Below, one piece after another: positions 1 to 45,538 of a stretch of DNA of 45,538 nucleotides (position 1 is its first letter; each line of letters starts with the position of its first letter). This DNA comes from Lentisphaeria bacterium (GTDB lineage Bacteria; Verrucomicrobiota; Lentisphaeria; Victivallales; Victivallaceae). The notes beneath the pieces were generated by a model. That model was not told the DNA's origin, made no database searches, and was given only the letters and a program-made list of their open reading frames with translations. The position numbers and the translations under genes were made by a program. The DNA is taken from the NCBI GenBank assembly GCA_017457065.1, contig JAFTIE010000187.1, forward strand, positions 1-45,538, read 5' to 3'.

Positions 1-210
1 CTCCGCCGTATGAAGCATTTTCCTGCGGAAAATATGAAGCGCCCCGTTGGGGCATGAAGCGCTTTCTTCGCAAGCATAATAAGGCATTTTTTTGTTCTCT
101 TTTTTCAGGTAATACAACGGCAAAACACCTGTTTGACAAGTAGTACTCACAAGGAGTTCGATGAGGGTAAAAACTCTTTTTTCCGGCTTCGGCTGATGAT
201 GATTTTTCAT
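1..210 (-). CDS. Pseudopilin N-terminus with hairpin-rich insert (partial, runs off left edge)
   Basis: Reading the minus strand from ATG at 210 gives an open frame of 70 codons with no stop before the window edge. An AAAGG ribosome site lies upstream. Residues 14-21 are FTLIELLV, the start of the type IV pilin/pseudopilin N-terminal helix. Directly after it the expected VIAIIAIL helix is missing. Instead come residues such as STTCQTGVLPLYYLKKENKK and, further on, a Cys/His/Arg-rich stretch. The DNA of that insert (1-147) contains alternating short palindromes and ATGAAGC heptamers. By analogy with the pseudopilin at 29829 the real helix probably resumes beyond the left edge with a second FTLIELLV; this is inference. 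It follows the LacI gene on the same strand after a 37-nt gap, so the two may be co-transcribed. The residue before F14 is Val, not the Gly normally needed by prepilin peptidase. It could also be a pseudogene. Confidence 0.7.
   Translation of the reverse strand, partial: MKNHHQPKPEKRVFTLIELLVSTTCQTGVLPLYYLKKENKKMPYYACEESASCPNGALHIFRRKMLHTAE
10..75. repeat. Alternating ATGAAGC heptamers and short perfect hairpins
   Basis: ATGAAGC occurs at 10-16, 34-40 and 54-60. Between and after these copies lie short palindromes of different sequence. Positions 17-33 have a 7-bp stem ATTTTCC/GGAAAAT with a 3-nt loop. Positions 41-53 have a 5-bp stem GCCCC/GGGGC with a 3-nt loop. Positions 61-75 have a 4-bp stem GCTT/AAGC. 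The bases at 1-9 could be the right arm of a further hairpin cut by the edge. The stems differ while the heptamer is constant, so this is a patterned array and not a simple tandem repeat. It lies inside the partial pseudopilin frame. Confidence 0.8.
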
Positions 211-247: not shown

Positions 248-1240
248 TCACGAACTTTTTCTGATAACAAGGGGCGCATCAAGGAGAAGGGGGGAGACTG
301 AGTTGCCTTTGAGCAGTTCAAGGAGCATCTGTGCCGCTTTGATGCCCGTTTCCTCTTTGGGCTGGACAATGGTCGTCAGGGGATAAAGGATCTGGTTGGC
401 AGCAAGCTCCACATCACTGAAGCCTACGGCGGCAAATTGGGAAGGTATCAGTTTGTTCCGCTCCACTGCCGCCCGTAAAGCTCCCAGCGCCGCTGTATCA
501 GATGCGGCAAAGACAGCGCTCAGATCAGGATCTTCATCAAACATCTCATGGGTCATGGCACATACTGCTTCCAAAGTCATGCGGCAGTAGCGGAACTGCA
601 GAGGACGCCCTTTCATGCACCTTTCATACCCTTTGAACCGCTCCTGCTGGGCGGCGTTATCGGCGTTGTGACCTATATAAGCGATATGGGTGTGTCCTCC
701 GGAAAGCAGATGTTTCATTGCACTGCACGCTGCTTTGAAGTTATCCATGGTCACTGAGGAACCGCCGAATTCCGGCATATACTCCATGACCTGAACCACG
801 GGGACACCCATGGAACGGATAAGGTAAGCCATTTCAAGATCTTCCTTGCGGGGATAGAGTATGACCCCTGCGGCATTATGCTGCATGAGAGAGGAGATCA
901 CCCGCTCCTTCTGTTCCCTGGTGGGTTTGTCAAGGGAGTCAAGAAGCATCATAAAGCCATTCTGTCCAGCCACTTCGCCGATGCCGGCAATGATGTTGCA
1001 GAAAAAACTTTTGTTGAGATAAGGGATCAGAACCCCGATAAAACGGCTTTTGCGGGTCACAAGTGAACGGGCGGCGGCATTGGGTACGTAGCCCATCCGG
1101 GTGGCGGTCTCAATGATCCTCTTGCGGGTCTCGGGAGCAAGGCGACCGGAATTGTTCAAGCCGTTGGAAACAGCACGGGCGGAAAGGTTGAGCGCCTTGC
1201 CGATATCTTTCAAAGTTACATTGCCGTTCCGGGAACTCAT
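248..1240 (-). CDS. LacI-family transcriptional regulator
   Basis: A 330-residue protein of normal LacI/GalR length. Residues about 8-60 form the helix-turn-helix and hinge region (VTLKDIGKALNLSARAVSNG followed by RKRIIETATRMGYVPNAAAR). The rest is a periplasmic-binding-protein-like sensor domain (IGVLIPYLNKSFFCNIIAGI; later AVFAASDTAALGALRAA and the AAVGFSDVELA strand), which in this family binds a sugar or related ligand. The start at 1240 has a well placed AGGAG. A sigma-70 type promoter and a perfect 18-bp palindrome lie between 1261 and 1332, which suggests autoregulation. Ligand and regulon cannot be told from sequence. The downstream same-strand partner is the truncated pseudopilin at 210. 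Confidence 0.93.
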   Translation of the reverse strand: MSSRNGNVTLKDIGKALNLSARAVSNGLNNSGRLAPETRKRIIETATRMGYVPNAAARSLVTRKSRFIGVLIPYLNKSFFCNIIAGIGEVAGQNGFMMLLDSLDKPTREQKERVISSLMQHNAAGVILYPRKEDLEMAYLIRSMGVPVVQVMEYMPEFGGSSVTMDNFKAACSAMKHLLSGGHTHIAYIGHNADNAAQQERFKGYERCMKGRPLQFRYCRMTLEAVCAMTHEMFDEDPDLSAVFAASDTAALGALRAAVERNKLIPSQFAAVGFSDVELAANQILYPLTTIVQPKEETGIKAAQMLLELLKGNSVSPLLLDAPLVIRKSS

Positions 1241-5404: not shown

Positions 5405-8083
5405 TCACCTGGCTCCTTTCTTCCGCAAAAGCCTTACGATAACGTTGGGGCTTTTGGCTTTGCGTGCCGTCTGCAAAGGCGTCAAATGATAGGTTTGCCA
5501 GCCCTTACTGCTCTTCAAATAGGAACTTTCTTTGCTTTGGACCTGAGCATTCCGATCAAGAAGAGCCTTGATCAGACCTGCTTTGTAACCGCTCATAAGC
5601 GCCTGATGGATCACAGCTTTATGTTTGGCGTGGGAAAAATCCCGGTAAAGATTGACAAGCCGTACCAGAATTTTTTCAGAAGCCTTGTAACGCATGGCAA
5701 CAGTCAGGTAGCAAAGGGAGCTGTTTTTCAGTTCACTGCTGTGGTGCTTCAGATAGAGCTCCAGATAGTCGTAAGCGTTGCTGCGCCGGAGTATCGCCTC
5801 CATGACCTGATCGTGGAAACGTGCCTGGGGAAAAGGTTTCACAACCAGCAATCTGAATGTCCTGAAAGAGCCGTTTCTGACAGCCATTGCCACCGGGATC
5901 TCTCTGTTGACCGCAGTGCTTTTGAAGGGGTCTGCTTTCTTCTTCAGAAGCAATTCCGCAGCTTTGAAGGAATCTGTTTCTGCCGCATGCTGCAGAAGGG
6001 TCATGTTTCTGGCGGCAGCATCAGGAGAAAGCCCTTCTTCAAGAGTTTTTTCCAGCTCTCCCAGACTATGACGTCTGATGGCTTTACAAGCCTTTTCTGC
6101 GAGATGAGGATTATTGAAATGCACCGGTCTGAAGGCTGTGGAAGAAACGGTGCTCTGGCTCTTCACTGCCGGGAAAAGTGCTGTGATGGCAGGCTCATCC
6201 AGACGTAAAAGGAGTTCATTCAAAACTTCGCTGCGGGGAACAGGGACCTTGCGTTCAAGCATGAGTCTGATCACATCGGCAGGCATTTTCCGGTTCAGTG
6301 CAACAAGGTACAGCTCTTTGTATTCATCACCGCTGAAATCCCCCCAATGCCTGACAAGAGCACTGAAAAGTGCCCCATTATTGGGGCGGCAGACATGGAA
6401 AAGCAACCGGGGATCTCTCCGGATTTTTTTTGATTTCAGCATAATTTCTGCAAAACGGGGAGACTCCGGGTGATTTGCAAAATCATGGCAGAGTACCGCC
6501 AGAAGATTTTCCCTGCTTCCGGAGCGGAGAACGGGGAGAGCTCCTTTGTTGAGAAGCAGTTCAAAAAGTTCCGGTGACCCCTCTTTGCCGGGAGGAAATG
6601 TTTCTGCCAGAGGGGAACGGCCCGCTTTTGAACATTTATTGACATCTGCCCCCTTTGCAATGAGCAGTTCTGCCATTGTAGTATTCTTTTTCTGACATGC
6701 GGCAATGAGAGGCGTAATGCCGCCGTCAAGAAAAGCATCGGCATCTGCTCCGCGGGCAATGGCACGTTGGACTTGGGCAAGATCATTTTTTCTGATGCCG
6801 GAAACAAGCTCCTCTGCTGCATCATATCGTTCTGACTTGCGGGAATTTTTCTGCATGGGAGAAACGGCACCGGCAAAGGCGGCTTTCTGCCGTTTCAAAG
6901 AACGCTTCCATGCAACATCTTTGATCTGACTCTCTGCCGGAGGGGTAGGTCCCGGAGAAACGTTTTTGCGAACCGTGGGAGAACGCCTCCGGGAAATCAC
7001 GGGCTCAGAGTTTTTCCGGGAAGTCTGTTTCCGGACTCTGATACGCTTCACAGCTTGAGAGGAGTATTTTTTTTCTGCAGGAGCGGGAGTTGTCTGAACA
7101 GCAGCGCCTTGAGGCAGCTTCCCCAAACCTTCTTTTGAGTGATCGGCAGAGCTGCGGCGCAGAAAGAATATGACAAGTACAATGGCAATGAGACAGAAGA
7201 GCAGAGCAAGGGCACTCCGGAAATATGGAGTGCAGAACAGGGGTTCTTTCATTCCAAAGAGCTTGAGGAGCTCTCTGCCTGAACTGATCCGGGCAGCGGG
7301 ATCTTTTTCAAGGAGATGGCTGAGGAGAGCAGTATCCCCCGGGATCTCTGCTCCGGGGAACTCCCCTTTCAGAAGCTTTGCCAGTACGGCATACTCATTG
7401 CCGGAACGGAAATACTCCCCCTTGCAGAGCATATAACTGTAAAGTGCTCCCAGAGAATAGACCGCTGCGGCAAAGGAGTATGGAGCGTTCCCGAGAAGGA
7501 GTTCAGGGGCAGTAAAAAGTGTGTTGCGCCGCAGCCGGGGCATCTTAAGAAGAGTGGCTCCGGAAAAAAGATGGCTCAGAGCCCCTGTTCCGGGGTAGAG
7601 ATATTTTACTTCCCCCGAAGCGCTGACAAAAAGATCATCGGGAGTGAATTCAAAAGCAGGAGCCTGGAACTTTTCGCCCGCCGCAAGAAGTCCTGCCAGC
7701 TGCTTTATGATCTTTTCAGCTGTAACGGGGTTCAGTTCTCCTCCTTCGACCAGCTCACGAATGGAGTGACCGTGAATGAGTTCCGTTGCAATACAGCGGT
7801 ACTCTTCTGTTTGAAAGACTCCCAAGACGGCAGCAAAGTTCCTGTGACGGAAAAAGCACGCCTTCTCAGCTTTTTTGAGAAGACGTGCCGCAACATCGGG
7901 CGAATGCCCGGAAATGGCAGCGCTGATCACCAGAAGAGAACAGCGCTTATTCGTTTTTTCTTCAGTGGCAGAGTACAATTCCCCTGTGCTGCTGCAGGCG
8001 GTAAAACCGTCAATACGGTATTTGCCCAACAGTGTGCCTTCCGGTAACGGACCGCAGGCCGCAGAAAAAGGCTCATCTGCCAT
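5405..8083 (-). CDS. Membrane pseudokinase with ankyrin repeats
   Basis: A protein of 892 residues. Residues about 20-280 align to a Hanks-type Ser/Thr kinase fold: glycine-loop region KYRIDGFTACSSTGELYSA, APE motif TAPELLLGNA near 191, and an YSLGALYSYML helix. The catalytic residues are missing. The VAIK lysine is absent (CSLLVIS), HRDLKPDN is replaced by FEFTPDDLF (about 144-152), DFG by YPG (about 163-165), and the Asp of DVYSLG by Ala. One membrane helix lies at about 289-308 (ALALLFCLIAIVLVIFFLRR), followed by a basic, Ser/Pro-rich linker (to about 410). Ankyrin-like repeats follow (GADADAFLDGGITPLIAACQ, LLIAKGADVNKCSKAGRSPL; another set near 670-740). Predicted topology: kinase-like domain in the cytoplasm, ankyrin part outside; this is inference. 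It has only a weak ribosome site, 14 nt after ntpK, so coupling to that gene is likely. Function unknown. Confidence 0.8.
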   Translation of the reverse strand: MADEPFSAACGPLPEGTLLGKYRIDGFTACSSTGELYSATEEKTNKRCSLLVISAAISGHSPDVAARLLKKAEKACFFRHRNFAAVLGVFQTEEYRCIATELIHGHSIRELVEGGELNPVTAEKIIKQLAGLLAAGEKFQAPAFEFTPDDLFVSASGEVKYLYPGTGALSHLFSGATLLKMPRLRRNTLFTAPELLLGNAPYSFAAAVYSLGALYSYMLCKGEYFRSGNEYAVLAKLLKGEFPGAEIPGDTALLSHLLEKDPAARISSGRELLKLFGMKEPLFCTPYFRSALALLFCLIAIVLVIFFLRRSSADHSKEGLGKLPQGAAVQTTPAPAEKKYSSQAVKRIRVRKQTSRKNSEPVISRRRSPTVRKNVSPGPTPPAESQIKDVAWKRSLKRQKAAFAGAVSPMQKNSRKSERYDAAEELVSGIRKNDLAQVQRAIARGADADAFLDGGITPLIAACQKKNTTMAELLIAKGADVNKCSKAGRSPLAETFPPGKEGSPELFELLLNKGALPVLRSGSRENLLAVLCHDFANHPESPRFAEIMLKSKKIRRDPRLLFHVCRPNNGALFSALVRHWGDFSGDEYKELYLVALNRKMPADVIRLMLERKVPVPRSEVLNELLLRLDEPAITALFPAVKSQSTVSSTAFRPVHFNNPHLAEKACKAIRRHSLGELEKTLEEGLSPDAAARNMTLLQHAAETDSFKAAELLLKKKADPFKSTAVNREIPVAMAVRNGSFRTFRLLVVKPFPQARFHDQVMEAILRRSNAYDYLELYLKHHSSELKNSSLCYLTVAMRYKASEKILVRLVNLYRDFSHAKHKAVIHQALMSGYKAGLIKALLDRNAQVQSKESSYLKSSKGWQTYHLTPLQTARKAKSPNVIVRLLRKKGAR

Positions 8084-26626: not shown

Positions 26627-26655
26627 TTTTCTTTCCTTCTGAGGTTTTAAGTAAA

Positions 26656-26682
26656 GAGGTGATTTCAAAAGTCATTCAAAAA
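26656..26682. repeat. Interspersed repeat, copy 1 (other copy in the 3' end of murE)
   Basis: The 27 bases here match 45399-45425 with one difference. The core ATTTCAAAAGTCATTCAAAA is identical in both. This copy is intergenic, in the leader of the nucleoside hydrolase transcript. The bases directly after it (TTGCCTC) can pair with its GAGGTGA start to make a weak stem of about 10 bp including two G-T pairs. Confidence 0.75.
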
Positions 26683-26691
26683 TTGCCTCTA

Positions 26692-29828: not shown

Positions 29829-30725
29829 ATGAAAAAAAGTATGAATGATCCAGAATTCCCAAATTGTAAATCTGATCTTCCGGTACGTTTTTTCACGCTG
29901 ATCGAACTATTGGTGAAAAGATCACATCTCTGCTGTGATCGTGTTTATGGCAAAGAAGAAGGTCTTTCACCTGCCCCTGGGCAGGTGAAGCTGTACAGCT
30001 TCACCTTAATAGAGCTTCTTGTCGTTATTGCAATTATCGCTATTCTTGCCGCTCTGCTGCTGCCCGCTCTGCAGCAGGCACGGGAGCGCGCCAAGATCTC
30101 CGGTTGTCTTAACAATCTCAAAAGCTGCGGCTTTTTTGCTCAGCAATATGCCGGAGACAACAAGGACTGGGCGCCTTTCGCCTACAGCGGCGTTTCGGGA
30201 ACAGCCGCCTACAGCGGTTATGCACCCTATTACTGCGGGACATGGTTTGTTTTGGTCGCTCCTTATACCGGAACTTACTACAGGTATGACTTCTACCGTA
30301 TTTCCATTCAGCCCCGCAAGTTTGTCACCACAAGGAAACCGGGTGTGTTTTCATGCTCAGGCAGAAAGAACAACACCAGCAACACCTGGGGCGCCAAGAT
30401 CGATTACTCTGTCAACAACAATGCCGCCGGATATGTCGTCAACAGTCTGGGCGCAAAACAGATGCAGTGGAGCAAAGTGCGCCGCCCCTCATGGAAGGTG
30501 TGGCAGACAGATGTCCGGAGAAATTCCGGTATCCCCGGCGGTACCAATATGAACGCCGGAGTCAACTTTGACGGATTGACCTGGTCCCATCTGGGAGGAA
30601 AGGTGGTCCCTGTGGTCTTTATGGACGGTCACACAGACACATTCCCCGTTGGACAGCTGCGCGTTTTCAATAATTCAAGTCCCTGGAAACGGTATTTGGA
30701 GAGTCCCTATTATTACGGATATTGA
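29829..30725 (+). CDS. Pseudopilin with duplicated FTLIELLV start and in-frame insert
   Basis: A 298-residue protein. FTLIELLV occurs at residues 22-29 and again at 58-65. Only the second copy continues into the normal hydrophobic helix [20 protein letters not shown]. The 28 residues between (30-57, KRSHLCC... to ...KLYS) are foreign to the family. The C-terminal domain is that of the H-x-DG type secreted pseudopilins common in Planctomycetes and Lentisphaerota ([16 protein letters not shown]). The residues before the two Phe are Phe and Ser, not the Gly that prepilin peptidase usually needs. The start ATG at 29829 has AGGAG 8 nt upstream; a TTG at 29823 is too close. It sits behind the DUF4838 gene with no promoter seen between, so it is probably co-expressed and involved in its export or display (inference). 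Confidence 0.85.
29916..29999 (+). mobile_element. 84-bp hairpin insert in pseudopilin coding sequence
   Basis: The insert lies between the two FTLIELLV coding segments (29892-29915 and 30000-30023) and keeps the frame (84 bp). It has a 7-bp stem GATCACA/TGTGATC with a 7-nt loop (29920-29940) and an 11-bp perfect stem TTCACCTGCCC/GGGCAGGTGAA with a 2-nt loop (29966-29989). A perfect 22-bp palindrome (29984-30005) shares the right arm and runs into the second FTLIELLV copy. No protein-coding capacity of its own and no classical insertion-sequence ends. The mobile nature is an inference from the flanking duplication and from the parallel insert at 1-147. Confidence 0.5.
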
Positions 30726-30773: not shown

Positions 30774-30815
30774 AAACGCTCCCTTTATCAGATCGAATAA
30801 GAGGGCGCTTTGATA
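30774..30815. repeat. Interspersed intergenic repeat, copy A
   Basis: The 24 bases at 30774-30797 are identical to 45497-45520, and after 2-3 variable bases the block GAGGGCGCTTTGA is identical again. The two halves form an imperfect stem (AAACGCTCCC against GGGCGCTTT), and this copy is followed by TAATTTT, so it could act as a terminator for the DUF4838/pseudopilin unit. The other copy also lies just after a gene. Confidence 0.7.
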
Positions 30816-30849
30816 ATTTTGGGGAGTTTTGAAATTGCCTCTTTTGAAT

Positions 30850-30878
30850 TTGCATTTTGTTTCTTTGTGCGGTATATT
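30850..30878 (+). promoter_or_regulatory. Promoter of the second pseudopilin gene
   Basis: TTGCAT (30850-30855), a 17-bp spacer and TATATT (30873-30878), 45 nt before the ATG at 30924. Confidence 0.65.
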
Positions 30879-30923
30879 AACTGCAGTTTATAAAAGAAGG
30901 TGCAACTGCAAGGAAAATAGATC

Positions 30924-31586
30924 ATGTTTCGCAAGAACCTTTTTACTTTGATAGAATTGCTCGTCGTTATTGCAATTATCGCTATTCTTGCCGCCATGCT
31001 GCTGCCTGCTCTGCAGCAGGCACGGGAACGTGCGCTCAGCACCAAGTGCGAAAATAATCTGAGGCAAGTCAACATGGCAGCTTCAGCCTACCGGGACGAT
31101 CATCAGGACTGGAATATGGACTCCAATAAAAATTACCGCGCTGAAATCATCAAGTATACAGGGCTTGATAAAATCAAAGGATATACTGATAAAAATACTG
31201 TTATGACTTGTATCAAACATCCTGTGTGGAAGAATTCCGCCAAAGCGCCCGGTTATTACGGATTCTGCTACTGGATGCACCAGAATTTTTCTCTTGACCA
31301 CTATAAAAAACGCCATATCCGCCATTCGGAGATCCGTTATCCGTCACAGCTTGCCTATATTCTGGAAGCAAGTTCCGGGCAGATCCTCACCTCGCACCGC
31401 TACAAGTATTACGGAGACGGCGGCAGCTGGGGGCAGGTAATAGGACCTTTCCACAACGGAAAACACAATCTTATCTACTATGACGGTCATGTGGGGAGCT
31501 TCCGGTACGGACAGATGCCGGCGCACCTTGAAACTGCCCTGGGCGGTGAACGGCTCTGGTATTCCCGGGGCGGACAGTATTTGTGA
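30924..31586 (+). CDS. Pseudopilin (type II secretion GspG-like, H-x-DG type)
   Basis: A 220-residue protein, uninterrupted. The N-terminus is a short basic leader, then [20 protein letters not shown] at residues 7-26, the helix that in this family anchors the protein and assembles pseudopilus fibres. The C-terminus carries [16 protein letters not shown], the DGH motif typical of this group. The residue before Phe7 is Leu, not Gly. The DNA from 30963 to 31031 is nearly identical to 30021-30089 in the pseudopilin upstream, although the rest of the two genes differs. AAGGA lies in front of the ATG. The endonuclease/phosphatase-family gene follows after 19 nt and is probably in the same transcript. 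Confidence 0.9.
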
Positions 31587-43949: not shown

Positions 43950-45457
43950 CACTTGCCAAAAAAATCTTGGGGGATCTGCTCATTTCTGAGCATAACGCCC
44001 TTACTCTTCCTTCCTCTTTTACCGCCGACTCCCGGCAGGTGAAAGAGGGCGTGGGTTTTGCCGCCATCCCGGGAACGCTGGCGGACGGACACACATTTAT
44101 TCCTGCTGCTCTTGAAAAAGGAGCAGCACTCATCGTTATGGAGCGCATGATGCCCCTGCCTGAGGGGACTCCCTTTCTCCTTGTCAAAGAGAGCGCCGCC
44201 GCCTTTGCTCTTCTGGTGCGCCATTGTGCCGGGGAGCCTGACAGGACCTTGCGCCTTATGGGGGTCACAGGAACCAACGGTAAGACCACCACCGCATTTC
44301 TGCTTGAACATATTTTCAACCATTCCGGGCGCTCTTGCGGACTTGTTTCCACTGTGGAATACCGCACCGGCAAAGAGATCATTCCGGGGGAACGCACGAC
44401 CCCCGACTCTCAAACCCTCTTTGCCCTTTTTTCCCGGATGAAAGAGAATTCCCTTTCCTGTGCCGCCATGGAGCTTTCAAGTCACTCTCTGGTCCAGAAC
44501 CGTGCCGCAGGCATCAAACTCCACGCCGGTATCTTCACCAATCTGACAGGGGACCATCTGGACTACCACGGCACCATGGAAAACTACTTTGCGGCGAAAA
44601 AGCGTCTCTTTACCCATTTTCTCCACCCGGAAGGGGTGGGGATCATCAATATTGATGATCCCTGGGGAAAAAGAGTTGCCAGTGAACTTGCAACGGAAAA
44701 ACGGATCGTGACCTTTTCGGTGGAAAAAGGAACCACTTGTCTTATTGATGCCATCTGCCTGGAAAAGGGGGGGAGCTCCTTTACACTGCACCATCCGGAG
44801 TACGGGGAGATCCCTTTGCGTTCCGATCTGACGGGAGCCTACAATGTTTACAATCTTGCCGGAGCCGCCATTGCCGCTCTGGAGCAGGGCATTACCCCTG
44901 TGGAGCTGCAGAACGCTCTCAAAGAAAAAATCCGGGTCCCCGGAAGACTGGAGTCCTTCCCCCTTCCCGGCGGCGGCTGTGCCTATGTGGATTACGCCCA
45001 CACCGATGATGCTCTTGTGAATGTGCTCAAAACTCTGCGTCCCCTGACTCCGGGCAAGCTCTGTGTTCTTTTCGGCGCCGGGGGGGACCGGGATAAAACC
45101 AAGCGCCCCCGCATGGGGAAAGCGGCTGCTCTTTTTGCAGACAAACTTTTTGTCACTTCTGACAATCCCCGCAGTGAAGAGCCTGAGAAGATCATTGAAG
45201 ATATTCTTTCAGGCATACCTGAGGGGAGCTCCTGCCGGGTGATCCCCGACCGGGGAGAGGCGATCCGGGAGGCGCTCAGTGAGATAAAAGAGGGGGATTC
45301 TTTGCTCATTGCCGGTAAAGGACATGAAAACTATCAGGAAATCAAGGGAATAAAATACCCTTTCAGCGATCTGGAAGAGATCCAAAGATTCATCAAAGGA
45401 GGTAATTTCAAAAGTCATTCAAAAAATGGCAAAGATGTCATTCGCAAAGAGCTGTAA
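43946..45457 (+). CDS. murE: UDP-N-acetylmuramoyl-L-alanyl-D-glutamate--2,6-diaminopimelate ligase
   Basis: MurE adds the third residue of the peptide stem. The 503-residue protein has SFTADSRQVKEG (UDP-sugar site), the ATP loop MGVTGTNGKTTTAFLLE, TTPDSQTLF, MELSSHSLVQNR, GDHLDYHGTMENYFAAK with the usual carbamylated Lys, and VTSDNPRSEEP. The DNPR motif is the mark of meso-diaminopimelate specificity, in agreement with dapB in this window. The last 16-18 residues (NFKSHSKNGKDVIRKEL) go beyond the usual end and are coded by the interspersed repeat at 45399-45425 and the bases after it. The 4-nt overlap with murF implies coupled translation. Confidence 0.95.
   Translation: MTLAKKILGDLLISEHNALTLPSSFTADSRQVKEGVGFAAIPGTLADGHTFIPAALEKGAALIVMERMMPLPEGTPFLLVKESAAAFALLVRHCAGEPDRTLRLMGVTGTNGKTTTAFLLEHIFNHSGRSCGLVSTVEYRTGKEIIPGERTTPDSQTLFALFSRMKENSLSCAAMELSSHSLVQNRAAGIKLHAGIFTNLTGDHLDYHGTMENYFAAKKRLFTHFLHPEGVGIINIDDPWGKRVASELATEKRIVTFSVEKGTTCLIDAICLEKGGSSFTLHHPEYGEIPLRSDLTGAYNVYNLAGAAIAALEQGITPVELQNALKEKIRVPGRLESFPLPGGGCAYVDYAHTDDALVNVLKTLRPLTPGKLCVLFGAGGDRDKTKRPRMGKAAALFADKLFVTSDNPRSEEPEKIIEDILSGIPEGSSCRVIPDRGEAIREALSEIKEGDSLLIAGKGHENYQEIKGIKYPFSDLEEIQRFIKGGNFKSHSKNGKDVIRKEL
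45399..45425. repeat. Interspersed repeat, copy 2, inside murE
   Basis: It matches 26656-26682 at 26 of 27 positions. This copy supplies codons for the C-terminal tail of MurE (from the GGNFKSHSK segment onward), so the repeat has replaced or extended the original gene end. Confidence 0.75.
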
Positions 45458-45469
45458 AGGGTAGTTTGA

Positions 45470-45494
45470 GGCTGCTACCTGCAAGGTAACAGCC
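45470..45494. terminator. Hairpin downstream of murE
   Basis: GGCTG and CAGCC form the outer stem and TACCT and AGGTA the inner stem, with one C-A mismatch between and a 3-nt loop. It lies 12 nt after the murE stop. There is no T-run after it; the intergenic repeat at 45497 follows at once, so together they may form a 3' end structure or part of a longer repeat element. Confidence 0.4.
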
Positions 45495-45496
45495 GA

Positions 45497-45538
45497 AAAC
45501 GCTCCCTTTATCAGATCGAAGCGAGGGCGCTTTGACAA
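45497..45538. repeat. Interspersed intergenic repeat, copy B (ends at window edge)
   Basis: The first 24 bases are identical to 30774-30797, followed after a short variable part by the same GAGGGCGCTTTGA block. Orientation is the same relative to the upstream gene. The element may continue past the window. Confidence 0.75.

Follow-up and report, generated by a model that had tools for sequence, protein, structure and literature searches.

Probable mobile hairpin cassettes inserted in frame at one position of the pilin motif in Lentisphaeria

The closest known kind of element to the inserts described here is the Rickettsia palindromic element (RPE), about 100-150 bp in length and present in many copies, nearly half of which lie in frame in protein-coding genes and leave the host gene open (PMC10969869). 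The inserts that we find in pseudopilin genes share with RPEs the multi-copy, palindromic and in-frame character; RPEs, however, occupy unrelated genes at many positions and bring back no host motif, whereas the present elements all occupy the same codon of a single gene family, whose motif they regenerate, can stack on one another and lie in a cleavable leader. Because the T1 and T2 families are seen only at FTLIELLV motifs or contig ends and the target is regenerated, we rejected filing them as RPEs. MITEs are likewise small, multi-copy, gene-free elements (PMC10969869). The present elements resemble them in all three respects, but an assignment to MITEs was rejected since the ends differ, terminal inverted repeats and ordinary target-site duplication are lacking, and the site specificity is strict. 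IS200/IS605 and REP/RAYT elements carry subterminal hairpins, insert 3' of a short fixed sequence without classical target duplication and have tiny non-autonomous derivatives; the present elements are like them in having hairpins near both ends and in inserting 3' of a fixed sequence, and unlike them in targeting a protein motif and in carrying a coding copy of that target at the right end. Integron cassettes and tRNA-gene islands regenerate their target with element sequence, stack in tandem and recombine at one dinucleotide. Target regeneration, stacking at one site and, as proposed, recombination at one dinucleotide recur here, but the present cassettes, unlike those of integrons, contain no genes, the target that they repair is a translated protein signal, and their junction, GT|G, looks unlike the attC G^TTRRRY. 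Inteins, group I/II introns and byp elements reside unobtrusively within conserved coding sequence, cost the host little and are self-removed from RNA or protein, or skipped, whereas removal of the present elements is proposed to proceed via the host prepilin peptidase. The literature searched, which comprised open-licence papers, held no description of these elements. We consider it probable (about 0.8) that they are site-specific, in-frame mobile hairpin cassettes, inserted at GT|N, which regenerate the pilin signal and whose peptide is discarded with the leader.

The window (the whole stretch of DNA analysed, 45,538 nt) belongs to a metagenome-assembled genome, G000, of a gut bacterium of the Lentisphaeria, of 3.52 Mb in 272 contigs, and its base 1 is the end of contig C154. 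The minus strand from 210 to 1 encodes a pilin start through FTLIELLV and then an unrelated open frame up to the contig edge (Table 1). Translation confirmed the claim of the first-pass annotation that this in-frame insert follows the same Val as the insert in the plus-strand gene at 29829, an insert of different sequence that is followed by a second FTLIELLV motif. The edge insert belongs to family T1 and the insert at 29829 to family T2. Three ATGAAGC heptamers alternating with palindromes had also been described at the edge, and both the heptamers and the palindromes between them (17-33 and 41-53) are present. The suggestion that TGAAGC-type junctions occur in both inserts is refined in that the ATGAAGC heptamer is a feature of the T1 family and not of T2. 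In other T1 copies the hairpin at 41..53 reads GCACT-GAA-AGTGC or GCTCC-GGA-GGAGC. A second pilin motif had been predicted beyond the left edge in the same frame, and this is what the sibling copies contain: those with 60-113 bases identical to the window edge that extend far enough continue in the same frame with PCFIRSA and then the second motif, with variants that carry FSLIELLVV (L139) or a second, stacked element (L027). A search for the orthologous locus of the edge gene via its LacI-type neighbour returned only distant relatives, of at most 44% identity. The heptamer ATGAAGC has 13 matches in the window against 8.6 expected, and with no enrichment there the idea that it is a genome-wide uptake-type signal was rejected.

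Table 1. Coordinates of the two occupied pseudopilin genes, their inserts and the adjoining genes in the window.
Feature	Position	Strand	Remark
Occupied pseudopilin gene, 5' part	1..210	-	Cut by contig edge
LacI-type regulator gene	248-1240		Directly upstream of the 1..210 pseudopilin
Gene-own first FTLIELLV copy	148..171	-	Element begins after GT at 149; first element base is wobble base 148
T1 element, initial 148 of 192 nt (168 nt insert + 24 nt motif)	1..148	-	Truncated by contig edge
T1 left-end hairpin ACTTGT-CAA-ACAGGT	127..141	-	7 nt from junction; A2 columns 10-24, 94% of cells paired
T1 hairpin GCTTGC-GAA-G(A/C)AAGC	61..75	-	A2 columns 76-90
GCTTCAT spacer	54..60	-	Heptamer match
T1 hairpin GCCCC-AAC-GGGGC	41..53	-	A2 columns 98-110; both sides changed in three pairs
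GCTTCAT spacer	34..40	-	Heptamer match
T1 hairpin ATTTTCC-GCA-GGAAAAT	17..33	-	A2 columns 118-134; elsewhere ATTTGCC-GCA-GGCAAAT
GCTTCAT spacer	10..16	-	Heptamer match
Pseudopilin gene occupied by T2 element	29829..30725	+	Pfam N_methyl matches second motif only, residues 58-78
First FTLIELLV copy	29892..29915	+	Gene-own through GT at 29913-29914
T2 element, 108 nt	29915..30022	+	Bounded by GT and by the Val wobble base of the gene itself
T2 left-end hairpin GATCACA...TGTGATC	29920..29940	+	Stem analysis
T2 hairpin CACCTGCC..GGCAGGTG	29968..29987	+	C-G to T-A, compensated in other species
T2 right-end palindrome GGTGAAGCTGTACAGCTTCACC	29984..30005	+	Overlaps start of second motif
Second FTLIELLV	30000..30023	+	Element-supplied through GT at 30022; proposed mature N-terminus
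Adjacent empty pseudopilin	30924..31586	+	5' region compared with occupied paralogue on C141

Both inserts are part of a much larger set, in keeping with the earlier argument that two insertions at the same site are hard to explain by chance. G000 has about 154 distinct FTLIELLV pilin starts; the mature start is readable in 126 pilins, of which 38-39 are empty and 87 have an element directly upstream (42 T1, 25 T2 and 20 T3), and many further FTLIELLV starts are cut by contig ends. Each of these 87 inserts is in frame and ends in a second FTLIELLV. The genome thus counted holds about 80-90 copies of small, hairpin-rich elements in three main families, T1, T2 and T3, with a single insert measuring 87-309 nt and a stop codon present in a few copies. 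Two consecutive elements, each with its own motif, occur at L015, L016, L027, L071, L091 and L143. Search matches to T1 and T2 in G000 fall at FTLIELLV motifs or contig ends only, which answers the question raised in the first-pass annotation of whether such arrays lie at random. Similar extended pseudopilins had been suggested to occur in other Lentisphaerota, and the same elements are indeed found in relatives: of 78 genomes of the same family, 20 carry T2 and 26 carry relatives of T1, and a scan of named genomes yielded 51 loci, all in metagenome-assembled genomes labelled Lentisphaeria or Lentisphaerae, many with isolate titles that mention sheep, roe deer or yak gut. The relatives contain stacked double inserts and also additional families at the same site, with peptides such as VTSQLCRDFF..., VIAQYC..., SSAVSS...SLSPAHS and SKACQICVY...SLPSPAP. 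The left ends of T2, VTSQLC and VIAQYC have a common TCACA-N-CTCTGC-N-GTGATC-like core and unrelated right parts, as if ends and middles had been exchanged. At L195, L206, L229 and L236 the inserts have long hairpins that encode SPLFLKEKGGAGER- or GEPFFKKGSLPSP-like peptides, and these hairpins presumably resemble the REP-type repeats of other phyla.

To locate the insertion point, we compared the motif copies on the two sides of the inserts. At wobble positions 2-20, the left copies in occupied genes and the motifs of empty genes are equally diverse (at nt 17, for example, H is 0.65 for T2 left copies and 0.65 in empty genes), and nt 23 of the left copy is G in 25/25 T2 and in 69/74 overall, where empty genes mostly have T or C. 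The right copy in T2 hardly varies through nt 20 and resembles the host gene from nt 23 on. Insertion always takes place at GT|N inside the DNA that codes for FTLIELLV, and all but the last base of the second FTLIELLV belongs to the mobile unit, so that the target site is regenerated. Given this one-base boundary of the left and right copies, the T2 mobile unit spans 108 nt, beginning with the base that follows the left GT and ending with the right GT. The ends of T2 differ (GAAAAGATC.. / ..CTTCTTGT), the only bases common to both at the junction being GT, and a test for ordinary target duplication in the tails of the left and right motif copies gave 0/21 for T2 and a weak excess in T1 and T3. 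The fixed GT|N, the placement of T1 and T2 at FTLIELLV or contig ends and the covarying stems described below uphold the earlier proposal of a site-specific family of hairpin elements. Since the occupied genes mostly differ from one another, without recognisable relationship, in both upstream region and mature body, the copies were not spread by gene duplication.

A pair of orthologues, empty in G055 and occupied by T2 in G048, is about 95% identical in the flanks and differs at the motif by a clean insertion of 108 nt; the left motif of this pair has about 4 mismatches in 23 bases, more than its flanks, a hint that flanking sequence was copied to some extent. The main rival explanation dispenses with dedicated mobility: an insert that arose once would have spread from paralogue to paralogue by ordinary homologous recombination or by gene conversion, with FTLIELLV...VIAIIAIL as the region of homology, together with interspecies DNA uptake. 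More than 150 paralogues have a short conserved stretch in common, and the surplus of left-motif differences in this fresh-looking insertion fits such a process. So does a comparison of L316 (G055) with L318 (G048), where a T3 element marks the point at which one pilin's promoter and leader meet the body of another; this pilin is a chimera, formed at the same junction as the inserts, with its 5' half and body from different genes. A further gene pair has a 5' region in common up to the GT only, with window positions 30824-30964 being 96% identical to an occupied gene on C141 and the identity ending exactly at ...CTCGT. Gene conversion predicts ragged tracts that carry flanking variants, yet the left copies are gene-diverse right up to the GT, diversity to the right of it is also gene-like, and the left homology amounts to 23 nt and is imperfect. 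Some gene conversion may occur, but a boundary sharp to one base in so many genes argues against conversion being the principal route, and we regard it as an unlikely account of the inserts as a whole.

The spread of T2 between species was examined by comparing the element with SecDF DNA and with its own flanks. T2 copies in G039 are identical at 108/108 positions to a copy in G000, although SecDF DNA is only 68% identical between the two; in another genus T2 is 97% identical and SecDF DNA 62%. Sequence adjoining T2 is only about 70-80% identical in most cross-species comparisons. An identity of the element so far above that of SecDF and the flanks suggests recent horizontal spread of the element alone, and we read T2 as a recent horizontal mover between species that appears to travel without its flanks.

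Stem substitutions distinguish selection on the fold from selection on the peptide. T1 has 98.2% of its stem cells paired, and 7 pairs are changed on both sides, vs 4.1 in shuffles and 0-2 in slid controls; in the right-end palindrome of T2 (GGTGAAGCTGTACAGCTTCACC), a compensated T-A to A-T change replaces Leu by Gln and Ser by Cys. Such covarying stems, with changes that alter amino acids, point to selection on the nucleic-acid fold and not on the peptide. The insert peptide appears to evolve almost freely (pN/pS of 0.82 in T1 and 0.61 in T2) and gave no significant match against Pfam, while the second motif has pN 0.004 and pS 0.42 in T1 and pN 0.003 and pS 0.26 in T2. These values also bear on the proposal that the inserts are useful host modules maintained by selection, acting either as extended leader peptides or, through their hairpins, as regulators of pilin expression. 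Near-identical element sequences across species would accord with such a role, as would the truncated copies that act as sole leader: at L083, at L087 and at the end of C182 the leader consists of the 3' half of T2 right after the start codon and is a 5'-truncated T2 now serving as the gene's only leader. A host function is nonetheless improbable given the 38 pilins of the same genome that have no insert, the several unrelated sequences at the same site, the peptide pN/pS of 0.6-0.8 with stem-preserving changes that alter amino acids, and an occupancy that differs between orthologues; the G048 orthologue of the window gene is empty and 88% identical across the mature part.

Which of the two motifs acts as the pilin signal can be judged from their decay. 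Prepilin peptidase cleaves class III signal peptide leaders before the F. The motif is changed in 9/79 first copies, 0/87 second copies and 0/38 empty genes (first vs second, p=0.001), and in a frame-blind search 20/22 distinct motif spacings were divisible by 3. At L184 and L240 the motif pairs lie 142 and 181 nt apart, which are non-multiples of three, and these may be frameshifted or decayed elements. Conservation of the second motif, the N_methyl match to it and the spacings in threes fit read-through with a mature pilin that starts at the second motif; from these we infer that the inserts are translated through and then removed with the leader. The opposite arrangement, in which the insert is removed before or during translation, by intron-like splicing or by byp-like ribosome bypassing between Val codons, and the signal is restored from the first motif, is very improbable. 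Bypassing would use hairpins and matching codons at both ends, and the elements do have hairpins and matching Val codons there; yet it is the first motif that decays and the second that stays unchanged, spacings are multiples of 3, and Rfam gives no intron match. Rfam covariance models run over seven loci found tRNAs only, and a known RNA family or group I/II intron was rejected on this result.

For the preferred reading, that of mobile cassettes at GT|N, we propose the following mechanism. Insertion would take place after ...GT|N in the DNA encoding FTLIELL-V, with the element's right end carrying its own copy of the coding motif. The original motif would then stay upstream inside a longer leader, and the element copy would join the gene's own VIAIIAIL helix. 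The ribosome would read through the insert and prepilin peptidase would cut before the second motif, so that the element peptide is lost with the leader and the mature pilin is unchanged; the regenerated motif would be a fresh target, on which elements could stack. Movement may depend on a recombinase supplied in trans that recognises hairpins in single-stranded DNA, or may proceed through a circular cassette that recombines at the GT. Hairpins lie 5 nt (left) and 17 nt (right) from the ends of T2 and 7 nt (left) and about 9 nt (right) from those of T1, and their nearness to both ends, the insertion 3' of a fixed sequence and the lack of extra duplication suggest a single-strand hairpin-recognising or circular-cassette route. 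The elements seem to be selfish, able to spread between species while the pilin gene stays intact. More tentatively, and at somewhat less than even odds, they may be mobile elements of a new class, with a protein-sorting signal as their homing site: gene-free cassettes that recombine at a single dinucleotide of the prepilin signal and restore the host gene at the protein level through the copy of the signal they carry, with the host signal peptidase as their removal step and an undescribed hairpin-recognising recombinase acting in trans. All of the evidence comes from metagenome-assembled genomes, and movement, translation and cleavage are deduced from sequence.

Candidate enzymes and carriers were sought in several ways. 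The IS110-type Transposase_20 (DEDD) is absent from G000 and present in only 1/34 genomes of the genus, and derivation from an IS110 bridge-RNA recombinase was rejected given its absence from G000. Y1_Tnp has one weak 166-aa match in G000 and none in the element-bearing G046, G048, G053 and G055; in these genomes, which are incomplete, no correlation between Y1 transposases and the elements is apparent. Among the loci retrieved, no larger, enzyme-coding version was seen at the insertion site. No carrier was found in IMG/VR with the T1 protein and the exact T2 pattern, in phage records with T2 DNA or in plasmid records with T1 DNA. Mobile elements usually spare their host by inserting in intergenic DNA or by splicing themselves out; in the present case protein processing appears to neutralise them. 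If this is correct, an element that sits in a discarded leader and supplies a new cleavage signal would give selfish DNA a new means of persisting within conserved genes. It would also be a natural tool for inserting sequence precisely and in frame at a coding motif, and a source from which chimeric pilins arise. The model is testable through the mature N-terminus and through the predictable circular T2 junction, ...GAGCTTCTTGT|GAAAAGATCACA....

An assembly or binning artefact, with a repeat collapsed onto pilin starts, would suit the many contigs that terminate within elements but is hardly credible given dozens of complete copies that lie within contigs, each flanked by distinct sequence, across many genomes assembled independently, and the clean empty allele in a relative. 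Many G000 contigs stop about 119 nt from the motif, within the element (e.g. C123, C147, C159, C173, C179, C219 and C254). The elements contribute to assembly fragmentation and help to explain the poor assembly of pilin genes in G000. An intergenic hairpin repeat family (..AAAGCGCCCTC..GGGAGCG.. / GACTTTTGAAATTACCTCTTT) has at least three copies in the window, at 26652-26688, 30774-30842 and 45396-45538; the right contig end falls inside this repeat, and the same repeat sequence precedes the pilin on C141. Elsewhere in the window, 5405-8083 encodes a protein of 892 aa in which a partial match to protein kinases precedes ankyrin repeats.
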